DNA of 47,735 nt from positions 1-47,735 of the forward strand of contig CALVHN010000008.1 of assembly GCA_944327845.1 (NCBI GenBank), in the 5' to 3' direction. Shown here in pieces: positions 5,757-47,735 of the stretch. Each line of letters opens with the position of its first letter. Within the stretch, counting starts at the first letter, position 1. The DNA is from an uncultured Bacilli bacterium. Its GTDB lineage: Bacteria > Bacillota_I > Bacilli_A > RFN20 > CAG-826. The notes below the pieces were generated by a model. The model had not been told where the DNA came from. It worked only from the letters and a program-made list of their open reading frames with translations, and searched no databases. Both the position numbers and the translations under genes were made by a program.

Positions 5757-6800
5757 TCAACTATTTTGATAAAATTTTAAAATATCTTGATATACTTTAT
5801 CTTTAATTAACTCATTTAATATTTCGTGTCTAGCATGTTCATAAATAATCAATGAAACGTCTAAATTAAATTTTGAATATAACTTAAATAAATTATTTAA
5901 TCCTTTTCCAAAATTGCCAACTGGATCATCAGCTCCACCAATAATTAATATATTTAATTCTTTAGAAATATTTTTAATATTCTTATTTTTTTGGATTTTA
6001 CTTAAGCCACCGAGAAAAGATTTAAAGAAAGAATTGCTACAACGATATCCACATAATTTATCTTCGTTATATTTTTTAACATTATCTTCATTATAACTTA
6101 ACCAATCATTTGCATCTTTTCTATCTTTAAACGCTTTTTCATAAGCTCCAATTGATAAATCATGTAATAAGGTTGCTGGATAAAATTTGTTCTTATCATT
6201 AACAATTAATTTAGATAAAATTGCACCAAATTTTATTAAAATGTTCTTACCATTTGTTCCACAAAGAACTAATTTATCAATATATTTATTTGAATATTTT
6301 TCAATGTATCCTTGCATTAAAAAAGAACCCATTGAATGTGAAAAAACATAGGTTTTTAAATTATATGTCTCTTTTAAATATTTAAAAAAGTTATGAAATA
6401 AATCGATTTCTTTAACAAAAAAATCATCAATTGGATAACCTAAATATTGAGTTTCACTTTGATCAATTGAATTTAAAAAAGTTTCTAAGATTTTTTTATT
6501 TTTCAAATTATTATTTTGTTTTAGTTTGTCATTATAACTATTTATTAAATTATTAAGAGTGTTTACTTTTATTTCTTTATTAACATTATCTTCATATAAT
6601 ACACAATTTTCACCTTGTCCAAAGTGATCTAAAGAAAAGACAGAATAGCCATTGTTATTTAAAAAAATTGCAAAATCAGAATATCTTTTAGCATATTCAG
6701 CCATTCCAGCAACGATAACTATAATTGCTTTAGGTTTATCGATTTCCCATTTGGCACCTTTTAATAATCCATAAGGAGATTTAAATTCAAAATTTTCCAT
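5757..6800 (-). CDS. Alpha/beta hydrolase, lysophospholipase-like
   Basis: A serine hydrolase of the S33/monoacylglycerol-lipase-like group (Hydrolase_4), 347 residues and cytoplasmic (no signal peptide). Visible elements are an early oxyanion stretch (IVAGMAEYAKRY), DHFGQG near residue 59, the nucleophile elbow SHSMGS with Ser156, the acid in GGADDPVG and the catalytic histidine in EHARHE. It may release acyl groups from lipids or small esters; the actual substrate is unknown. It is first in a leftward pair with the M6 metalloprotease. Its upstream region is shared with the divergent TPR membrane gene at 7235. Confidence 0.8.
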   Translation of the reverse strand: MENFEFKSPYGLLKGAKWEIDKPKAIIVIVAGMAEYAKRYSDFAIFLNNNGYSVFSLDHFGQGENCVLYEDNVNKEIKVNTLNNLINSYNDKLKQNNNLKNKKILETFLNSIDQSETQYLGYPIDDFFVKEIDLFHNFFKYLKETYNLKTYVFSHSMGSFLMQGYIEKYSNKYIDKLVLCGTNGKNILIKFGAILSKLIVNDKNKFYPATLLHDLSIGAYEKAFKDRKDANDWLSYNEDNVKKYNEDKLCGYRCSNSFFKSFLGGLSKIQKNKNIKNISKELNILIIGGADDPVGNFGKGLNNLFKLYSKFNLDVSLIIYEHARHEILNELIKDKVYQDILKFYQNS

Positions 6801-7234: not shown

Positions 7235-9124
7235 ATGGATATAGTTATAAAACATTTATTTTTATTACTTTTAATTATCATTTATTCAATTATCTTATCA
7301 TTAGGATATTTTATTCCTTTATATAATTACTTTTACATCCCGATTATAATCATTTCATCAATATTATTTATTATTATAATTACTAACTTATTTTTACTTT
7401 ATAAAAGAAAAAATAAATATATTATTTCTAAAAACTTACTTAAAAGATTTGAAGTTATAAAAAATAAAATAGCTAAAAATACTTCGGTAATTTTTTCCTT
7501 ATACATAATTTATTTTAATTTCACATATCTTTTATTATTAGCATTAGGATTTTTTATTGGACAATTATTACAAATTAATTTTGGATACATTATTTTATTA
7601 ATTTTAATAGCAATAATTCTTTCTTCTATTTCTTTTAATTATCTTTTTATCTTTTTAAGAAATGAAAAAATCATTAAAACTAAAAACAATAACATTTTTT
7701 ATATTAATGATTCTGATGTGTTTGATATTAAATATTTAAATAAGTTAAAAATTACTATTGGTATAAAACTCTTACCATTTTTAAAAGAAGAAGATCTTGA
7801 TTTACAAGCTAACATAAATAAATATTTATTCTTAAGATTAACTTTTAAGAAATTTAAATTATATTCAACATTAAATTATCATTTATCTAAATTAACTATT
7901 GATAATGGACTAATTACTCATTTTATTAATATCTTATTCTTTAAAATTTCTATCAACTCATTAAATAATAATTATAAATTATTAGTAAAAGACTTTAAGA
8001 AGGAATTCTTTAAAACAAAAGAAACATATATTATCGAAAATAGCTTTACTAAAAACCATTTAGAATTTATTTATCGTCTTTATTCCTATAAATTAGCTAA
8101 AGAATTATGTTTTGAGTTTGTTCCATACATTAATAACAAGGATTGTCCTAAAGATTATTACATTCAAGAAGCTGAATATATTTTTGATTTTATGAATAAT
8201 AATAAAAAGCTTATTAAAGATTTATTATATTTAAATAATGAAGTTAAATCAGTTCGTGAAGCTTTAGCTATAAAGGAAGAAATAATTTTTGAACCTTCTT
8301 TAACTTTTATTAATAGTAAAATTTTTAATACTTTTAATGATATTTATTATCGAAAAAATATTAAAAATTACTCAAATAATTATCTTTTAAATTATGATTT
8401 ATATAAACGAATAATCGATGATAAAAATAAATTAAAATCTCCAATCGAACTTGCCTTTTTAGCTTATTCTTATTTAAAAGTAAGAGACTTAAATCAAGCA
8501 AAATTGATCTTTCAAAGAAGCTTAAGAATCAATCCTAAAAATAATTTTGCTAAGCATTATTTAGGTGTAATTTTAATTAAAGAAAATAATCCATTAGGAT
8601 TAAATTTATTAATAGAAAGTTATGAAACTAATCCTAATTATTTAGAATCTTCTTTAAAATTAATTGACGAATATAACATAAGAAATGCTCTAAATTACAC
8701 TAAAAACTCTACTAATCTCAATTCAATTTCTTTAATTAAGGAAAGATTAGATTTTATTGAATCACATGAATTAACAACAAATAGTAAAGTTATTTCTTCA
8801 ACTTTAAACGAAGATATAATTAATTTAATTAAAAATGATGCTCAAAAATTTAAATACGTTAAAGAAATTAAAACATTTACTCAAGTACTTGATAATTATG
8901 AAAAGCATTATATTAGTATTCTTTTTACAAAAGAAAGCAAAGCAGTTGATAAAACAATAGTTTTTTATATTTTTTATTACTTGCTTAACAATCTTGATTT
9001 ACCAATTAATACAAATAACTTTTTCTTATATGAATTAAAATATCCTAAGAAAAAATATGACATCTATTCAACTTATTTTAATAGCAAAATAAGTACCATA
9101 ATTTATCAAAAGGAGGAACTATAA
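7235..9124 (+). CDS. Membrane protein with cytoplasmic TPR-like region
   Basis: A 629-residue protein of unknown function. Four hydrophobic segments lie in the first ~145 residues: two near 5-55, then two near 85-140. A long Lys/Asn/Ile-rich soluble part follows. Residues around 405-480 contain TPR-like helices with the typical NPKNNFAKHYLGV and NPNYLESS spacing, so the soluble part probably binds a partner protein. No enzyme motif was seen. No good ribosome site precedes the chosen ATG, so the exact start is uncertain. The stop overlaps the next start by one base (TAATG), linking it to the Pr6Pr protein. Confidence 0.65.
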   Translation: MDIVIKHLFLLLLIIIYSIILSLGYFIPLYNYFYIPIIIISSILFIIIITNLFLLYKRKNKYIISKNLLKRFEVIKNKIAKNTSVIFSLYIIYFNFTYLLLLALGFFIGQLLQINFGYIILLILIAIILSSISFNYLFIFLRNEKIIKTKNNNIFYINDSDVFDIKYLNKLKITIGIKLLPFLKEEDLDLQANINKYLFLRLTFKKFKLYSTLNYHLSKLTIDNGLITHFINILFFKISINSLNNNYKLLVKDFKKEFFKTKETYIIENSFTKNHLEFIYRLYSYKLAKELCFEFVPYINNKDCPKDYYIQEAEYIFDFMNNNKKLIKDLLYLNNEVKSVREALAIKEEIIFEPSLTFINSKIFNTFNDIYYRKNIKNYSNNYLLNYDLYKRIIDDKNKLKSPIELAFLAYSYLKVRDLNQAKLIFQRSLRINPKNNFAKHYLGVILIKENNPLGLNLLIESYETNPNYLESSLKLIDEYNIRNALNYTKNSTNLNSISLIKERLDFIESHELTTNSKVISSTLNEDIINLIKNDAQKFKYVKEIKTFTQVLDNYEKHYISILFTKESKAVDKTIVFYIFYYLLNNLDLPINTNNFFLYELKYPKKKYDIYSTYFNSKISTIIYQKEEL

Positions 9125-37464: not shown

Positions 37465-38083
37465 TAGATAAAAGCAAGTTCTAAAATAAATAGAACGGTT
37501 GAAAACCAAATTAGAGTTGCAGGATTTCCATCAAGAAAAACCTTTGAATTATTTGATTTTAATTTTCAACAACTTTAGATATTGAAAAAATTAAGGATTT
37601 AAGAACATTAAGATTCATAGAAAATAAAGAAAATGTTGTATTTTTAGGAACTCTAGGAGTTGGTAAAACTCATTTAGCAACTGCTCTTGGAATCGAAGCA
37701 ATTGGACATAAATATTCAACATATTTTATTAATTACCTGTTTTAATTCAAAATTTATTAAAAACAAATTTTGAAAATAAATTGGAAGAAAAATTAAAGTT
37801 ATATTCAAAATATAAAGTTTTAATTATAGATGAAATTGGATATTTACCAACAAATATCCAAGGAGCAAATTTATTTTTTCAACTTATTGCAAGAAGAAAT
37901 GAAAAAAATACAACTATTTTTACAACAAATAAAAATTTAGGAGAATGGGACGAAACCTTTCAAGACAATGTAATATCAGCAGCGATTATTGATAGAGTCT
38001 TGCGCCATTGCAATGTAGTTAAAATTATTGGAGAAAGCTATAGATTAAAAGAAAGTAAGGCATTATTTAATAAAAAAAATTAA
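37465..38083 (+). pseudogene. istB: Degenerate istB (IS21-family helper ATPase)
   Basis: Three fragments in different frames together give an IstB protein. The first is ENQIRVAGFPSRKTFELFDF. The second runs from LDIEKIKDLRTLRFIENKEN to the Walker A GTLGVGKTHLATA and ends near 37,745. The third starts near 37,738 and holds the Walker B LIIDEIGYLP, then FTTNKNLGEWDETF and IIDRVLRHCNVVKIIG. Two frameshifts and a stop break it, and the N-terminal part is not recognisable. The transposase gene istA is absent, so the copy is dead. Confidence 0.85.
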
Positions 38084-38089
38084 TTATAT

Positions 38090-38137
38090 GTACAAAATTG
38101 GCCGTGATTTTTGTACAAAATTAATCCGTGATTGACA
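38090..38137 (+). mobile_element. Right end of an IS21-type element
   Basis: Read inward on the minus strand, the end starts TGTCAATCACGG and then repeats AATCACGG and TTTTGTACA once each more. Internally repeated ends are typical of IS21 family elements. It lies just after the istB remnant. A degraded left end may be the similar AATCAGCGGTTAATTTTTTA at about 37,260. Confidence 0.6.
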
Positions 38138-39867: not shown

Positions 39868-39910
39868 TTTGAGACCATTGCTTTGTATCAAAATGTTAGT
39901 TATAAAATGT

Positions 39911-39978
39911 GGTTGCACATCAATATTGATACATTTAGCCCTTTTTACAAGGGGTTGCACTACAACATTGATACATTT
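39911..39978 (+). repeat. Two direct repeats at the left border of the cassette
   Basis: GGTTGCAC, nine variable bases, then GATACATTT occurs at 39,911-39,936 and 39,953-39,978, with 42 nt between starts. The second copy contains TACAACATTGATACA (39,961-39,975), whose exact reverse complement is at 44,797-44,811. Confidence 0.7.
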
Positions 39979-39982
39979 CAAA

Positions 39983-40005
39983 GGGGATGGGAGGAATCGA
40001 ACGGA
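39983..40005 (-). other. tRNA T-arm-like sequence at cassette border
   Basis: Right after the nuclease stop, the minus strand reads GTTCGATTCCTCCCATCCCC, like the 3' half of a tRNA (T-loop plus acceptor strand). No matching 5' half is present. Two more GTTCGAYTCC sequences lie at the other border (44,820 and 44,889). They may be attachment-site remnants. Confidence 0.4.
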
Positions 40006-42849
40006 TTATTCAACAATTTTCCATCTAAAGCCAAAGGCCTTTTCCTGCCTTCCACTACAACAATTTGAGATTTGAGACGCAGCAGAACGGCTTTTCCCAT
40101 ATTTCTCAGCCGCCTTTGTCATCGAAGAAAACACTTCCCCAGTGTCGATGTTCATCACTTTAGTTGAAATGGACTTTGAACAACGAGGGCAATTAGGATG
40201 GTTGATCCTGTTACTAGGTGCCGCTTCCCATTCGTATCCACAATCAGGACATTTCCACCAAACTTTTCTATTCGACTTTGGTTTCAATTGCGAAGGCGAA
40301 ACATCGTTTTTCTCATAATTCCAAAATTTGAGCACTTCAGGATTTAAAGTGGCTAGATCATTAACTCCTTCAATAGCATATCTGCCACTGCAATATGGGC
40401 ATCCTGCCTTTTGTCTATTGTGGATTAATGCTTGATAAGAATGTCCTTCAGGACACAACCACCAAACTTTTTTAGAGAAGCTAATTCCAATATTATGTGG
40501 ATCAACAAAAGTATTCTTTTCGTAATCCCATTCTTTGAGCAAATCAGGGAAAAGAGTAGCGAAATCATTAAAGCCGCTCAACACCAACTTGCCACTACAA
40601 TAAGGACATCCAGTTCCTTTCATTCTAGACTTTATTTGCGCTTTCCACCTATGCCCTTTGGAACATATCCAAGAATAGGTCATATCACCATAGTTGCCTA
40701 GGACATCGGTTGGTGTTAGTCCTTCATTGTTTTCATAATCCCATTCCTTTGCTAAATCAGGATTTATAGTTGCCAAATCATTCACCCCAACAATTACACT
40801 TGGTTTCTTTTTCGGAGATAAGGACAAGCCCCTTAATTCCGAATCGGTAATTGAGCCTGATGCTTCAGTTGAATTTATTTTCTTTCTTTCACTAAGAGAT
40901 TTCTTTATCTCTTCAGCTCGGCAAATCGGGCATTTACCACCTGAAACGCGATTAATGATAGAAGCAACCCATTGATGCCCGCATTTGCCTTTCCACCATA
41001 TTTGTTGGGTAGAAGTTTTCGAGAACATCGTGGGCTTAAGATTTAAATTTTTCGTTGGATGCCACTCTTCTGCCAAATCAGGGCACTGATATGCAAATGA
41101 ATTTGTTCTTAGTTGATGCTTAAAAGAAGCCAAGATTTCATTTGAATCATCATCTATGTTGATAGAAATTGTTTTATGTGGCTCGTCAAGAGATTCAATG
41201 ATGTTTGCAATGATTTGATCTAATGTATAGGAATCCGATAATTTGTATATCGTTACACAAGGCGTGGATTCCATATCAGGACAACCTTTTTCTCTTACTC
41301 TGATTAAATGGATGCCGTGCTTTTCACAAATATGATTCTTCCTTATATCTTTTTTGATATCTTGATGCCAATTTTCGCCGTCGTATTCAATTCCAATGGA
41401 CTTGCTTGGTAAATATATATCCAATTCGACTTTTAGATGCCTATCCCCATTAATAGCTTCAGGAAAAGCCTTGGAAATATAGAAGTAAATTGCTTGCTCA
41501 GGAAAAGAAGACCTAAGATACTTGCTACATTCAGGGCATCCTGATCCATTATGTCTTTCAACTAGTGCAGATTTCCACGAATGGCCAAATTCGCACTTCC
41601 ACCAAACTTCGTTATGGGATCCAGCTATAAAATCTTCAGGTTTTAAATCACCATTTTTCTCGTAATCCCATTCTTCGATTAAGTCGGGATGAATGGTGGC
41701 AAAATCATTGAACCCTCGTAAAAGCCTATGGTTAGAGCAATAAGGACAACCGTTGCCTGCGTGTCTTTGTTCTACTGACGCTTCATAAGAATGCCCTTTT
41801 GGGCAAACCCACCAAACTTTTGTCCTTGATGAAAATGATACTTCCTCAGGCTTTATTGAGTTTTTATTGTAATCCCATTCAGTTAAAAGTTCAGGGTGCC
41901 GCTCTGCGAATGACCCTCTATTTTTAAGAATGGTTTTATATGCCAAAGCCTTGCCTTCTTCTATGCCGCATTTTGGACACCCACTATGTCTATTGGTTCT
42001 ATTTCCTGCTGACGCTTGATATGACAAGCCACATTTCGGGCATATCCACCAATATTTTTTAAGGCTTCCCGCGAATATGTCAGACGGAACAATCGGAAAA
42101 TTCTTTTCGTAATCCCAATCTTTTGATACCTCAGGATTCGTTGTTTCTAAATCATTAAAACCTTTTAAAAGCTTCTTGTGGGAACAATAAGGGCAACCAG
42201 TGTTTCCGAATGCTCGAGCATCAGGAGTCGCTTGGTATGAATGCCCATTAGAACAAATCCACCAAAACTTTTTTCCACTCCTCTTTAAAATGTTTTCAGG
42301 TCTGATTGGATAATTCTTTTCGTAATCCCATTCAGTAGCCAACGATGGAAAAGAAGTCTTGAAATCATTCTTACCAATAATAGGTTTTTGTCCTGCGCAG
42401 TAAGGACACCCAGTATGTCCTATTGTTCTAGAAGAAACTCGGCTTTCATAGCTATGCCCATTTGGGCAGACCCACCAAACTTTTTTATTAGATTTTGAAA
42501 GAATATTTGATGGTTTTATTTCTCCGTTTTTGGAATAATCCCATTGATTGGCAATATCAGGGTAAAGGGTTTCTAAATCATTAAAACCTTTGTAGGCCTG
42601 CTTAGGATATTTTGAAATGAACGGGCAACCGTTTTCTTGCCTTGAATAAATTGCTGCCTCCCATTCGAAATCAAAATGACGACCAGTGTTTGGATCATCG
42701 TATGGTAGAAACCACCAAACCTTCTTTTTAGAAGAAGCCGTGACATCTCTTGGAGTAAGTGAACCGTTTTTTGTTGGATGCCATTCCTTAGCTATTTCAG
42801 GGTAAAGGGTTTCTAAATCATTAATACCTCTAATTAATTTCTTACCCAC
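40006..42849 (-). CDS. Giant zinc-ribbon nuclease with PD-(D/E)xK core and NUMOD1-like end
   Basis: 947 residues. About ten copies of a ~68-residue zinc-ribbon/treble-clef module (DUF4379-like) share EWDYEKN, then KKVWWxCPxGHSYxA, then GCPYC: six before and four after a nuclease-like core at ~449-585. In that core Glu452, Asp477 (ELDIYL), Glu488 (GIEYDG) and a late LIRVRE fit a PD-(D/E)xK/Vsr-DUF559 fold. Residues ~895-947 resemble a NUMOD1 DNA-binding tail of homing endonucleases. Module 1 has lost most zinc ligands. It starts with GTG, overlapping the HTH gene's stop by one base; AGAAGG lies upstream. Likely a DNA-targeting nuclease; the target is unknown. It is visibly richer in G+C than flanking genes. 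Confidence 0.8.
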   Translation of the reverse strand: MGKKLIRGINDLETLYPEIAKEWHPTKNGSLTPRDVTASSKKKVWWFLPYDDPNTGRHFDFEWEAAIYSRQENGCPFISKYPKQAYKGFNDLETLYPDIANQWDYSKNGEIKPSNILSKSNKKVWWVCPNGHSYESRVSSRTIGHTGCPYCAGQKPIIGKNDFKTSFPSLATEWDYEKNYPIRPENILKRSGKKFWWICSNGHSYQATPDARAFGNTGCPYCSHKKLLKGFNDLETTNPEVSKDWDYEKNFPIVPSDIFAGSLKKYWWICPKCGLSYQASAGNRTNRHSGCPKCGIEEGKALAYKTILKNRGSFAERHPELLTEWDYNKNSIKPEEVSFSSRTKVWWVCPKGHSYEASVEQRHAGNGCPYCSNHRLLRGFNDFATIHPDLIEEWDYEKNGDLKPEDFIAGSHNEVWWKCEFGHSWKSALVERHNGSGCPECSKYLRSSFPEQAIYFYISKAFPEAINGDRHLKVELDIYLPSKSIGIEYDGENWHQDIKKDIRKNHICEKHGIHLIRVREKGCPDMESTPCVTIYKLSDSYTLDQIIANIIESLDEPHKTISINIDDDSNEILASFKHQLRTNSFAYQCPDLAEEWHPTKNLNLKPTMFSKTSTQQIWWKGKCGHQWVASIINRVSGGKCPICRAEEIKKSLSERKKINSTEASGSITDSELRGLSLSPKKKPSVIVGVNDLATINPDLAKEWDYENNEGLTPTDVLGNYGDMTYSWICSKGHRWKAQIKSRMKGTGCPYCSGKLVLSGFNDFATLFPDLLKEWDYEKNTFVDPHNIGISFSKKVWWLCPEGHSYQALIHNRQKAGCPYCSGRYAIEGVNDLATLNPEVLKFWNYEKNDVSPSQLKPKSNRKVWWKCPDCGYEWEAAPSNRINHPNCPRCSKSISTKVMNIDTGEVFSSMTKAAEKYGKSRSAASQISNCCSGRQEKAFGFRWKIVE

Positions 42850-43025
42850 TATTTCATTTTCCTTCTTAATTCATCTAATTTTCTTTGTACTTTAAAGATG
42901 GGATTGAATTTGCCGTTCTCATATCTATTGACCGATGCGAAAGAGATACCTAAAAGCTCTGTGAACTCAGTTTGGGTCATCATCATCCTCAATCTAATGT
43001 TCTTGAATTCTTCGGGGGTAAACAT
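42849..43025 (-). CDS. Small XRE-type helix-turn-helix protein
   Basis: 58 residues from ATG at 43,025 to TAG at 42,849. The sequence has a Cro/CI-type helix-turn-helix: MMTQTEFTELLGISFASVNR followed by YENGKFNP, the standard XRE recognition-helix pattern. AGGAGATAAGT precedes the start. It lies between the HEPN-like gene (2-nt gap) and the nuclease (1-nt overlap), so it is made from the same message. It probably represses the cassette's own promoter or guides nuclease expression. It could also be an antitoxin, which is inference. Confidence 0.85.
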   Translation of the reverse strand: MFTPEEFKNIRLRMMMTQTEFTELLGISFASVNRYENGKFNPIFKVQRKLDELRRKMK

Positions 43026-43027
43026 AC

Positions 43028-43456
43028 TTATCTCCTATAAACCTCACTGCAAAGTTTTATTCTTACCTTCTCGACGTTCCTGAAAACAACCGAGAGCCTG
43101 TCATGGTCCTTTGTCAGTTTTTGGCACTGCTTCGCATACTCATCGGAATAAATGAAATTTTCTTCGTACATAAACTCGGTGAAAACCTTATGCGCCCAAT
43201 GGTTCCTGTTTTTGGATAATTGTTTGAGGAAATTATAGTCGCCGCTAGATATGTTCGGCTTCCCATCCTCGTTGTCTAATGCCTTTAGCAGATCAATCAT
43301 CTGCCCAAGAGTCCTGTTTTCGACCCTGTCCAAATTATCGTTGACATTGCCTTCATGCATATATGCGTAGATAAGCTTCAAATCGTGTTCGACGACTTGG
43401 TAGTACATTATCGTCTCGCTATGGAGAATCTTGAATTCATCGAAGTTCATAATCAT
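43028..43456 (-). CDS. HEPN-like protein with RNxxxH motif (copy 1)
   Basis: 142 residues, all-helical in appearance. EHDLKLIYAYM at 23-33 and Arg84-Asn85-x3-His89 (RNHWAH) match the layout of HEPN RNases, in which Rx4-6H is catalytic. A closely related protein is encoded at 45,105-45,542 (shared ALDNxDGKP, DY-L, RN-x3-H and DHxRL). Its ATG overlaps the stop of the upstream DUF2075-like gene by 4 nt (ATGA). HEPN proteins in such islands are often toxins or defence effectors. No MNT-type antitoxin partner is seen. G+C-rich codons unlike the host. Confidence 0.65.
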   Translation of the reverse strand: MIMNFDEFKILHSETIMYYQVVEHDLKLIYAYMHEGNVNDNLDRVENRTLGQMIDLLKALDNEDGKPNISSGDYNFLKQLSKNRNHWAHKVFTEFMYEENFIYSDEYAKQCQKLTKDHDRLSVVFRNVEKVRIKLCSEVYRR

Positions 43457-43764
43457 TTAATCTCCAATGTGTATTCCATGTACTTTTGGAAGGTCGTGTT
43501 TTTCCAAAAGCCGAGCCTGATGCCATCGATTCCCCTCGTGAGGAGGATGTAATAGATATTCAAGACGGACAGCGTGAATTCGAATTTGTTCTTCTGGTCA
43601 ACCATCTCGTCGGCATTGAATTTCCCATTCACATTGTAGAAATGGTCTGGATTGGCATACAAATGCCCATTGGCGTCGATTTCCAAGTCATTGCCGATAA
43701 GAACGCCTACTTTATTCAAATCAAGTCGAAAATGTCGATAAACACTAGTGTTTTTCTTTAACAT
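43453..43764 (-). pseudogene. C-terminal fragment of a DUF2075 (helicase-like) protein
   Basis: 103 codons. LNKVGVLIGNDLEID and NIYYILLTRGIDGIRLGF match the end of DUF2075 proteins (Schlafen-group DNA/RNA helicases of ~600 residues, with VGVIIGxDL and YxxLLTRG motifs). The ATPase part is missing, and the frame begins inside the end of the upstream gene with no proper ribosome site. It is probably what remains after an internal deletion, though the 3' coupling to the HEPN-like gene is intact. It could instead survive as a short stand-alone domain. Confidence 0.6.
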
Positions 43765-44296
43765 ATTTCCAATGGCATTCTCTTAGTTCACTTCTCAATC
43801 GCTCTTTCGAGAACTTGGCACCGATATCCTCGCAGATGAGAGAAATCAATTGCCAAAGCATATCTTTGGGTGCGGCATCGATATAATCGCACAGGTTTTG
43901 GCTATTTATGGCTTTGGCTTGCTCATCCAACCCACTGAAGTAAACGCCATACCTGATTTCCGCCTCGGCTTGCTCGTACAGGTCAAAGCCATCGAAGACT
44001 GGTCCTGTGGCGTAGCTTTCGTTCAAAGGGAACATGATGGCGGCATCGAACACCTTATCGTTGATGGTTAGCCAGGAATGGTCGAAAGCACCTCCGTACA
44101 ATCCAGCTTCGCCGATGCAAGGGGTGGATTCGATGCCCAAAACTTTGCATATCGCAAAAAGCACCGCCACGCTAGGATGGCAGGCACCGCTCCAACCCTG
44201 TTCGTCTATGAATTGGCAGACCAGGCTAAAAGCGCGCTTGAACTTCGATTCGTTTTTTATTCCCAAATGGATATTCTTGATTGTCTTCATAATCAC
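43745..44296 (-). CDS. Transglutaminase-like cysteine protein
   Basis: 183 residues with an apparent Cys-His-Asp triad: Cys39 in WSGACHPSVAVLF, His73 in FDHSWLTI and Asp84 in KVFDAA. This spacing is typical of transglutaminase/papain-like folds, which cleave or modify proteins. No signal peptide, so it acts in the cytoplasm. The ATG overlaps the preceding gene by 4 nt (ATGA), and the 3' end overlaps the DUF2075 fragment by 20 nt. The exact family was not recognised. G+C-rich, foreign in composition. Confidence 0.55.
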   Translation of the reverse strand: MIMKTIKNIHLGIKNESKFKRAFSLVCQFIDEQGWSGACHPSVAVLFAICKVLGIESTPCIGEAGLYGGAFDHSWLTINDKVFDAAIMFPLNESYATGPVFDGFDLYEQAEAEIRYGVYFSGLDEQAKAINSQNLCDYIDAAPKDMLWQLISLICEDIGAKFSKERLRSELRECHWKYVKEKH

Positions 44297-44726
44297 CCAA
44301 AATACTTCCGAATGATGTTCCTCTTCTCGGCATCGAATTCCTCTTCGATGAGGTCATTGATTTCCTCGGGCAGATCACCGATATAGAGCTTCAGGAGACC
44401 CTTGAGCTTCTTGAGCCTCTCGTATTGCTTGTCTGCGCCAACCTGCTCCTTCTCATTCACGAGGTTACTGACCAACATAGTCGGATCCTGGGAATAGCAG
44501 GATTTGAAGTTCTCATAGGGTAGTCGGTGAGCTTGCCTTCGTTGTGGAGGGTCTCCACGGCAACCGCCACTTTTGCCTTGGTGGATAGCTTCTCGTCCTG
44601 ATGATGGGTTTTGTAGATTTGGACAAGCTGATTGAAAATGAAGGAGTAACTGGAGCGAATATCGGTCACGACAGTCTCCCTCTCCCCCAACGAAAAAATA
44701 TCTTCGTTATGTTCGTTTGGACTCAT
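44293..44726 (-). pseudogene. First cassette gene, unknown, with a frameshift
   Basis: Two frames join near 44,522. The first (44,457-44,726) gives 70 good residues (MSPNEHNEDIFSLGERETVV...) and then runs into an unlikely tail. The second, open from there to 44,293, gives YENFKSCYSQDPTMLVSNLV and then a helical end (KKLKGLLKLYIGDLPEEIND). One missing base after GACTACC accounts for it, restoring about 144 residues. Mostly helical, no recognised family. Strong AAGGAGGA lies 8 nt before the ATG. Either a true mutation, a sequencing error or programmed frameshifting. Confidence 0.6.
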
Positions 44727-44753
44727 TTAAATCGTCCTCCTTATGTGATTTAG

Positions 44754-44762
44754 ATTATAGCA
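44754..44762 (-). promoter_or_regulatory. Extended -10 promoter of the cassette
   Basis: TGCTATAAT on the minus strand is an ideal extended -10 element, 28 nt before the first cassette start and about 35 nt inside the right inverted repeat. The -35 (TTTTAT at 17 nt) is poor, as is usual with extended -10 promoters. All six genes follow without a visible terminator. Confidence 0.7.
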
Positions 44763-44796
44763 TTGATTCTTTATTAATAAAAGGAAGGCGTGTGGG

Positions 44797-44811
44797 TGTA
44801 TCAATGTTGTA
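44797..44811 (+). repeat. Right 15-bp inverted repeat of the cassette
   Basis: TGTATCAATGTTGTA is the exact reverse complement of TACAACATTGATACA at 39,961-39,975. The pair encloses 4.85 kb containing the six-gene G+C-rich operon and its promoter. Flanking bases do not extend the match. Confidence 0.75.
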
Positions 44812-44819
44812 CTAAGGTA

Positions 44820-44910
44820 GTTCGATTCCCCCCAACAAGCCTGATTTCGTGCGCTTCCCTATGCACTTCTATGGGAATCCTCGGCATAGTTCGACTCCCA
44901 CCATTCCACC
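44820..44910 (+). other. Two tRNA T-arm-like half sequences
   Basis: GTTCGATTCCCCCC at 44,820-44,833 and GTTCGACTCCCACCATTCCA from 44,889 have the T-loop pattern GTTCGANTC plus a 3' arm, but the bases before each cannot form the matching 5' arm. They resemble tRNA 3' ends left at an integration site. Covariance-model search would decide. Confidence 0.4.
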
Positions 44911-44962
44911 TAAAAACCTTCCAAACACCCAAAACAGGTGTATATTTGGTCGAAAATTCATT

Positions 44963-44990
44963 AAAAAAGCCCCAATAATCGTATTGGAGC
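44963..44990 (-). terminator. Terminator of the second HEPN-like cassette
   Basis: On the minus strand GCTCCAATA, loop CGAT, TATTGGGGC is a fully paired 9-bp stem (one U-G) followed by TTTTTT. It ends transcription of the leftward 45,105 gene. The plus strand gives the same stem with one mismatch and AATTTTTT, so it could work both ways. Confidence 0.8.
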
Positions 44991-45028
44991 AATTTTTTAA
45001 AGATGTCTTTGTGCTATCGCTTTGATAC

Positions 45029-45083
45029 AAAACGACACCCCTACTAGCAAAACGAAACCCTTACTAGAAAAACGACACCCTAT
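45029..45083 (+). repeat. Three tandem 20-bp direct repeats
   Basis: AAAACGACACCCCTACTAGC, AAAACGAAACCCTTACTAGA and AAAACGACACCCTATAAAG stand head to tail with no spacer. They resemble protein-binding iterons, or the multiple internal repeats found at IS21-family ends; no transposase lies next to them. Confidence 0.75.
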
Positions 45084-45104
45084 AAAGTGCAGATTTTATC
45101 GCTA

Positions 45105-45542
45105 TTATTTGTATCCAAAGAACCTTAATCTTGCATCTTCAACAGAGCCATATAATTTTGCTAATCGATTATGATCATTCACTAATCTTTTTGCAGACTT
45201 TTGAAACGCAGAATTCCAATCTTCATCCTGCTCGTAAGAAAATTCCATGTAGCACTCATGAGCATAATAATTTCTAATGTTTGTTATGTTTCTTAAAAGT
45301 TCATAATCAGCATTAGTAAAATATGGTTTGCCATCAGAATTATCCAATGCTTCCAATTCAGATATTGTCTTTCCTAATGTCCATTTTTCAAATTGTGCTT
45401 TTTGATTTGCGTTCATAGGAATTCTCATACCTGAGTAGATAAGTTTTACATCATGCTCAATACACTGGCAAAAATACATGATTCTGCCAACACAATAATG
45501 ATAATCAGCAATATTTGTTATTTTTCTAATCGAATCAATCAT
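45105..45542 (-). CDS. HEPN-like protein with RNxxxH motif (copy 2)
   Basis: 145 residues, a homologue of the 43,028-43,456 product. Both share IEHDxKLIY, TLGxxI, ALDNxDGKP, a tyrosine-rich approach, then Arg90-Asn91-x3-His95 (RNYYAH) and NDHNRLAKLY. The motif is that of HEPN ribonucleases. It begins directly after the stop of the helical partner gene (no gap), so the two are co-translated. Its codons are A/T-rich like the host, unlike copy 1, so the two copies reached the island separately. Toxin or abortive-infection function is an inference. Confidence 0.65.
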   Translation of the reverse strand: MIDSIRKITNIADYHYCVGRIMYFCQCIEHDVKLIYSGMRIPMNANQKAQFEKWTLGKTISELEALDNSDGKPYFTNADYELLRNITNIRNYYAHECYMEFSYEQDEDWNSAFQKSAKRLVNDHNRLAKLYGSVEDARLRFFGYK

Positions 45543-47066: not shown

Positions 47067-47735
47067 TTACTTCCTAGTCTCTACTTTCACCTTGTATCCT
47101 GAATTGAATATGAATTCGATGCCTTTATCTCGGTGGACTACCGCCTTATCAATCATGATGTTAAATAGCTCTTCATCGAATTCGGTTATCGCATCAGACT
47201 TGCTTCTTAGATTCGAAATGAAGGTGCTTATTTTGTTTCTTTTATCTATCACTTCTTCCTTTTGACGCTCTAAGTCTTTTAACTTTTGAATTAGCTTATC
47301 ATATTTGAGTTCTAGCTCTTTTTGTTTAATCTCATCCGTTTCTTTTGAAGAGTGGATAAGGATTTCAACCTCATTAACAACAGCTTCTATATCTTCATGA
47401 ACCTTCTTGATTTTCTCTTCGATGCTTTCAACACTGACAATTTGATTAAGGACTAGTTCTAGGTTATTAAGAATCTCACCCTTATTTACAATCATCTTGT
47501 TATATGCACCGACAAACATCGCTTTTATCTCTTCTTCGTTCAAAGTCGGAGTTTGGCATTGTTCTTTATTCTTTTTATCGAATTTATAATTGCACTGCCA
47601 TATAGTTTTCTTATATTTATCAGTCGAATGCCAGACTTTAGATCCGTATAAATGTCCACAATCTGCACAGATTAATTTTGAAGAAAAGCAATTTTTTGAA
47701 GAATAAGAATATCTAAGTTCTGCTCTTCTTTGAAG
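47067..47735 (-). CDS. Large serine recombinase, C-terminal part (runs off the window)
   Basis: 222 codons are visible, the N-terminal catalytic domain lying beyond the right edge. A recombinase zinc-ribbon is seen: Cys-x2-Cys (LICADCGHLYGSK), then WQCNYKF and a fourth Cys 12 residues on (EQCQTPTLNEEEIKAMF). A long coiled-coil (about 75-180 of the visible part) and a short beta end (GIEFIFNSGYKVKVE) complete the typical DDE-independent serine integrase tail. Enzymes of this kind integrate and excise mobile elements, so it is the best candidate for moving the island. The first part is cut by the window, not by mutation. Confidence 0.88.
   Translation of the reverse strand, partial: LQRRAELRYSYSSKNCFSSKLICADCGHLYGSKVWHSTDKYKKTIWQCNYKFDKKNKEQCQTPTLNEEEIKAMFVGAYNKMIVNKGEILNNLELVLNQIVSVESIEEKIKKVHEDIEAVVNEVEILIHSSKETDEIKQKELELKYDKLIQKLKDLERQKEEVIDKRNKISTFISNLRSKSDAITEFDEELFNIMIDKAVVHRDKGIEFIFNSGYKVKVETRK

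Follow-up and report, generated by a model that had tools for sequence, protein, structure and literature searches.

The cassette and its nuclease gene

The window, that is the whole 47,735-bp stretch analysed here (contig CALVHN010000008.1 of an uncultured Bacilli bacterium), carries a mobile cassette of 5,096 bp, cassette Y, at 39908..45003, with a GC content of 40.7% against 23-32% in its neighbours. It is read on the minus strand, as are all features below unless stated otherwise. A leader (44727..45003), homologous to leaders that abut a CCA end in genomes G070 and G043 and at locus L047, is followed by an operon of five small ORFs (43028..44726; 142, 103, 183, 61 and 89 aa), one of them HEPN-like with an RNxxAH motif, by a gene for a 58-aa XRE-type helix-turn-helix protein (42849..43025; HTH_3, E = 9e-8) and, last in the cassette, by a 947-aa gene (40006..42849) whose GTG start overlaps the XRE stop codon (TAGTG). 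Related HEPN-like proteins sharing RNxxAH are found at 43028-43456 and 45105-45542, one per neighbouring cassette, and are perhaps toxin-antitoxin or abortive-infection genes. The cassette also contains short T-arm-like pieces: TTCGATTCCTCCCATCCCC at 39993..40001, which resembles the 3′ end of the genome's own tRNA-Trp and is near-identical in the cassette end of G070, and two antisense pieces within the leader (44821..44898, plus strand, at 44821-44829 and 44890-44898). Similar pieces lie near the cassette ends of L047, L055, L060, L071, L083 and L109; those close to the tRNA are antisense, those at the opposite end are in sense orientation, and they are enriched approximately ten-fold upstream.

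The 947-aa protein is composed of six treble-clef modules, a Vsr-like core, four further modules and a NUMOD1-like tail. Each of the ten modules (1-6 at 41521..42795, 7-10 at 40174..41076) matched PF14311 (DUF4379) with 44-78 bits, above the Pfam gathering cut-off of 24.5, and the whole protein reached E = 5e-172. The 6+4 arrangement around a central segment proposed in the initial annotation was thus confirmed; its description of the modules held as far as repeated zinc modules are concerned, but the label "zinc ribbon" has to be replaced by treble clef, which we take to be the probable fold of DUF4379. Zinc ligands are absent from module 1 (residues 19-76) and displaced in module 7. When the host genome was searched with PF14311, every match listed fell within this gene. 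The treble-clef part aligned, with Z scores of 11.6-12.2, with DUF4379 chains from assembly intermediates of the trypanosome mitoribosome.

The central domain (41080..41514) was modelled with AlphaFold on residues 384-646, using 61 sequences, and a PD-(D/E)xK fold was predicted confidently (pLDDT 92.6). A structure aligner matched this core to the DUF559-like protein 3hrl (Z 9.0), to Vsr (1cw0, Z 8.8) and to the catalytic domain of I-Bth0305I (3r3p, Z 8.8, also 8.4). Foldseek alone, applied to the nuclease model, returned no match with E ≤ 0.001, so that assignment to the Vsr family relies on the second aligner and on conserved residues. S448, E451, D477, E488, Y489, D490, G491, H495, K504 and R517 are invariant in 89/89 aligned homologues; for EYDG..H this invariance is circular, because that motif belonged to the homologue search pattern, but S448, E451, D477, K504 and R517 did not belong to it and are free of this circularity. 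Pfam signals in the segment were weak, with a sub-threshold match to MTES_1575 REase (E = 1e-3). The predicted fold and the conserved active-site residues confirm, at the level of a model, that the central domain is a Vsr/EDxHD-type PD-(D/E)xK nuclease core, as had been anticipated from the sequence; two of the acidic residues named at that time, D477 and E488, were correct, whereas Glu452 is in fact at position 451.

At the C-terminus of the full-length model, residues 893-947 (40009..40173) superpose on residues 118-172 of I-HmuI (1u3e; Z 7.2, 1.7 Å over 52 residues) and on the DNA-binding protein 8b6e (Z 9.1), and the tail matches phrog_20162 (E = 6e-6). The Pfam scan of the 947-aa protein listed no NUMOD family. 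In fold the tail corresponds to the NUMOD1-type DNA-binding module at the C-terminus of I-HmuI, in line with the homing-endonuclease-like module first suspected there. The full-length model reached pLDDT 85 with a pTM of 0.38, which makes its domain arrangement unreliable.

Both ends of cassette Y were located with a 50-bp attachment motif, TGTATCAA-N16-CA/N16-TTGATACA, where the slash marks the junction. The far junction, TGTATCAATATTGATGTGCAACCACA/TTTTATAACTAACATTTTGATACA (39884..39933), has no mismatch to it, with 0 and 0 in the halves meeting at 39907/39908; the tRNA-side junction, TGTATCAAAGCGATAGCACAAAGACA/TCTTTAAAAAATTGCTCCAATACG (44980..45029), has 0 and 4 in the halves meeting at 45003/45004. 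Sites with up to 3 mismatches are expected 0.06 times per shuffled window. The joined outer halves, TGTATCAAAGCGATAGCACAAAGACA/TCTTATAACTAACATTTTGATACA (one mismatch), form an uninterrupted site in three genomes, G017 (a member of the same genus), G520 and G069; G055 has it with one additional change. In these four genomes the left flank is homologous over 60-106 nt and the right flank over 72-81 nt. Conservation of the left flank of the window within the genus was not found. Exact junctions, an empty site and a GC step at each end together mark 39908-45003 as a clean insertion of 5,096 bp, and the gene does lie at a cassette border, as first thought. IS21-like ends were considered as the border and rejected, the inverted repeats being accounted for by the attachment motif.

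Several other features were observed around the cassette. A GGGTGTCGTTTT-like motif is iterated three times at 45018-45085, immediately outside cassette Y, and iterated motifs resembling it, GTGCATTTT and GGGTTCATAT, occur near other nuclease cassettes. A degraded IS21-type IstB remnant lies at 37520-38120, close to a Fic gene. Elsewhere in the host genome (contig C4, position 5190; L347), a second att-like junction is located about 1.15 kb downstream of tRNA-Lys.

Relatives and their position at tRNA gene ends

Relatives are numerous, with 372 confirmed in the portion of the genome collection scanned, mostly in gut Bacillota but also in Saccharibacteria, Gastranaerophilales, Elusimicrobia, one archaeon and one Bacteroidota. 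The distribution is sporadic, as only 8/392 genomes of the phylum carry a relative. The number of modules was compared between homologues, as the initial annotation had recommended, and in 76 complete genes it varies from 3 to 13 and is 5-10 in most of them; modules occur both before and after the nuclease domain. A NUMOD1-like tail is present in 18/79 relatives, each time at the extreme end. The nuclease at L040 has 13 modules, two of which are identical and lie four units apart; judged by this identity, it is the product of a recent duplication of a four-module block, which indicates that module arrays change by duplication. The XRE gene and the nuclease were considered as a conserved pair, and the coupling was not found in relatives.

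Proteins combining DUF4379/CapR-like modules with an EDxHD/Vsr domain have been placed among homing endonucleases, as a class described within phage introns and with thousands of relatives noted (PMC12350094). Like the members of this EDxHD/Vsr outgroup (Nucleic Acids Res. 2025, gkaf761, PMC12350094), the window protein has several tandem zinc modules of about 60 aa, of the CapR/DUF4379/DUF723-like kind, together with a Vsr-like nuclease domain. The outgroup has 3-5 modules followed by a C-terminal nuclease and resides within phage group II introns, whereas in the present relatives the nuclease is central, with 3-13 modules around it, a NUMOD1 tail occurs in some proteins, and the genes sit in bacterial tRNA-gene cassettes. 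With four modules and a tail behind its nuclease, the window protein is a layout variant of that outgroup. It has in common with the EDxHD homing endonuclease I-Bth0305I the catalytic fold and a multi-domain DNA-binding plan, but the DNA-binding modules differ and the window nuclease is found without an intron. The Vsr endonuclease, specific for T:G mismatches (1cw0), and DUF559 proteins (3hrl) share the core fold and, unlike the window protein, lack treble-clef arrays and a NUMOD tail. Phage relatives are annotated as Hef-like homing endonucleases; those of Campylobacter phages show partial similarity, at about 24% identity, over modules and core, but their module similarity is far weaker, and the viral loci have no tRNA link (0/61).

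Translated pieces of tRNA upstream of many relatives led us to test for adjacency. A same-strand tRNA or tmRNA gene lies within 450 nt upstream of 19 of the 76 nuclease genes with upstream sequence, compared to 8 of 893 other ORFs from the same loci (Fisher p = 1e-16); because the 76 genes are not independent, we also counted clusters at 80% nuclease identity, of which 14/65 have such a neighbour. Every RNA gene located within 450 nt has its 3′ end turned towards the nuclease gene (22/22, against 21/63 for control ORFs), and this orientation bias is absent past 450 nt. General tRNA density was ruled out as the cause by these controls. The RNA genes concerned are Pro, Leu, Ser, Trp, Tyr, Glu and Met tRNAs and tmRNA, and a match between nuclease type and tRNA type was rejected, as related nucleases occur at different tRNAs.

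Exact CCA junctions were seen for three element families. A 2,518-bp element made of a nuclease gene and one DUF2513 gene is 99.9% identical at its two sites: at L060 it directly abuts the CCA of tRNA-Tyr, at L065 that of a tRNA-Leu 3′ end. Leaders like that of the window operon abut the CCA of tRNA-Glu in G070, tRNA-Trp at L047 and tRNA-Arg in G043. In sister genomes of G070 this locus is alike as far as the end of the tRNA and different from there on (G147 is 98% identical up to this point). In G043 (L231/L234), tRNA-Arg and the shared leader are followed by a remnant that has lost the nuclease and carries repeats also known from nuclease relatives.

Attachment sites and movement of the cassettes

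The right half of the motif recurs at RNA gene ends. A CCA followed by N16-TTGATACA was found at offset 16 for 13/96 distinct RNA ends, seven of which are one tRNA-Glu locus in sister species, at offset 15 for one, and almost nowhere else; with shuffled motifs the mean was 1.2, and 1/300 reached 11. Cassette far ends read TGTATCAA-N16-CA. On this basis complete elements of 2,642, 2,258, 2,346 and 2,774 bp were predicted at L062, L064, L082 and L090, the nuclease being the sole gene seen in the first three. Independent DNA homology of L062 and of L090 starts at CCA and stops exactly at the predicted far ends; an Rfam tRNA search before the L090 junction gave no match. The motif is present in 86/146 genomes and 26/35 genera of the family, and the reversed control has about ten occurrences overall.

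Cassettes with shared ends also exist without the nuclease, including in G047, which has no match to the nuclease profile. Tandem cassettes of this kind lie behind tRNA-Glu in the genus of G070; their junctions bear both halves of the motif, and their cargo, named by eye from the sequences, includes an acetyltransferase, restriction-modification (R-M) genes of the Dcm type and a TIR protein. In genus g23 (L296, L298, L292, L297 and L300), the stretch from tRNA-Glu to a conserved permease gene holds tandem arrays with 50-bp junctions, whose cargo is of the R-M, TIR, acetyltransferase and MerR/oxidoreductase-like kinds. Direct repeats replace clean ends at L061, L101, L113, L118 and L041, so that elements may insert by more than one route; at L061 a solo nuclease lies between 61-nt exact repeats (6331-6391 and 8576-8636) that match the 3′ end of a protein-coding gene of the host.

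In their behaviour these elements are like integron cassettes, SCC and tRNA islands: the units of cargo are small, they line up in tandem at an anchor gene, and their junctions are site-specific. They differ in their 50-bp sites and in the lack of a recombinase in small complete cassettes. The integron attC core G/TTRRRY is absent, the 12 strict junctions reading CA/ and then variable bases. Islands of tyrosine integrases typically displace a tRNA fragment, whereas here insertion after CCA is clean, displaced tRNA 3′ fragments occurring only in other loci (L101, L113 and L118); no integrase was found in the 2.3-2.8-kb cassettes. SCC uses rlmH as anchor with a ccr serine recombinase, and the anchors seen here are tRNA and tmRNA genes. 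A literature search of partial coverage yielded no description of such tRNA-end cassettes, and those of gut bacteria apparently form an undescribed family.

How do the cassettes move? Homing by the nuclease, suggested in the initial annotation, is the less likely route: cassettes devoid of nuclease share the same ends, and one nuclease element, 99.9% identical, occurs at two tRNAs. For the same reasons their movement is most likely the work of a recombinase distinct from the nuclease, probably one of the large serine type. Target and element both carry the TTGATACA half-site at an equal distance, which points to a site-specific recombinase acting around CA, and insertion leaves the right half-site motif beside CCA. 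The neighbouring cassette X ends with a large serine recombinase gene that extends past the window edge; the C-terminal portion encoded inside, at 47067..47735, has weak similarity to recombinases of G070. In G070 an island with shared ends, presumed continuous across contigs C22 and C5, holds phage genes and two large serine recombinases. On contig C5 (L291, L294 and L295) this prophage-like island has its two large serine recombinases in tandem and a DUF262-like gene, and its far end is that of the window cassette. PF07508, the large serine recombinase family, has no match in G047 (98% complete) or G043 (100%), which both bear cassettes, and this counts against a recombinase of that type.

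Possible roles of the nuclease

Taken as a whole, the explanation that we favour, with slightly better than even confidence, is an EDxHD/Vsr endonuclease that has a selfish or competitive role in a cassette moved by a recombinase. The protein would belong to the EDxHD/Vsr homing-endonuclease outgroup and act as a sequence-specific endonuclease on DNA, with the treble-clef modules and NUMOD1 tail holding DNA and the central Vsr-like domain cutting it. Cassettes with 50-bp sites insert cleanly after the CCA of tRNA or tmRNA genes or into existing cassette junctions and accumulate as tandem arrays; they would be moved by a separate recombinase, most likely of the large serine type. The nuclease, if it indeed cleaves DNA, would cut cassette-less or rival DNA and favour its own cassette. 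It is best read as a selfish or competition endonuclease, a passenger that would benefit the cassette. The domains, the predicted fold with its conserved residues, the cassette ends with their empty site and the link to tRNA 3′ ends were all established from sequence.

The closest rival makes the nuclease a defence effector, one of several cassette defence genes, whose array would recognise incoming phage or plasmid DNA for cutting by the Vsr-like domain. The R-M, TIR and HEPN cargo of neighbouring cassettes suits plain defence almost as well: same-ended cassettes contain R-M genes of the Dcm type as well as a TIR protein, the window cassette contains a HEPN-like gene and an XRE regulator, and PADLOC gave a weak candidate match (PDC-S69). 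We nevertheless find this reading rather unlikely, as neither a methyltransferase nor any other partner for self-protection could be recognised within the window cassette, the single-gene cassettes of L062, L064 and L082 are partnerless and phage relatives are annotated as homing endonucleases. It is still less probable, to the point of being doubtful, that the nuclease is itself the mobility enzyme, cutting the att site and a circular cassette for host ligation or repair to join, by homing or cut-and-join. The dyad symmetry of cassette ends, the nuclease as sole gene in L062, L064, L082 and L061 and the absence of an integrase signature from the examined flanks of 21/22 tRNA-adjacent loci would suit such an enzyme, but strand rejoining is not expected of a PD-(D/E)xK nuclease, same-ended cassettes exist without it (as in G047), and an identical nuclease occurs at tRNA-Tyr and tRNA-Leu and related ones at many tRNA types. 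Very improbable is a protein whose modules bind RNA and which targets tRNA or rRNA rather than DNA: the solved DUF4379 proteins found do belong to trypanosomatid mitoribosomes and their assembly intermediates and the genes do adjoin tRNA genes, but the Vsr-like core is a DNA endonuclease fold, the NUMOD1-like tail is a DNA-binding module, and the attachment site of the cassettes accounts for the link to tRNA genes.

Returning to the selfish endonuclease, we put forward a broader picture as a tentative one: an undescribed family of gut Bacillota cassettes at tRNA/tmRNA CCA ends, moved in trans, with 50-bp att sites, tandem arrays and R-M, TIR, HEPN or treble-clef-array nuclease cargo, in which the nuclease might act on the att locus and confer a drive-like advantage. 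A large class of putative nucleases with natural repeat-array DNA-binding modules is now tied to exact cassette ends and empty sites, which makes the nuclease target directly testable. The cassette system resembles integrons in behaviour and is distinct in its sites and anchor. As the motif occurs in more than half of the sampled genomes of the family and the cargo includes defence genes, these cassettes are a candidate route for the spread of defence genes in gut bacteria.
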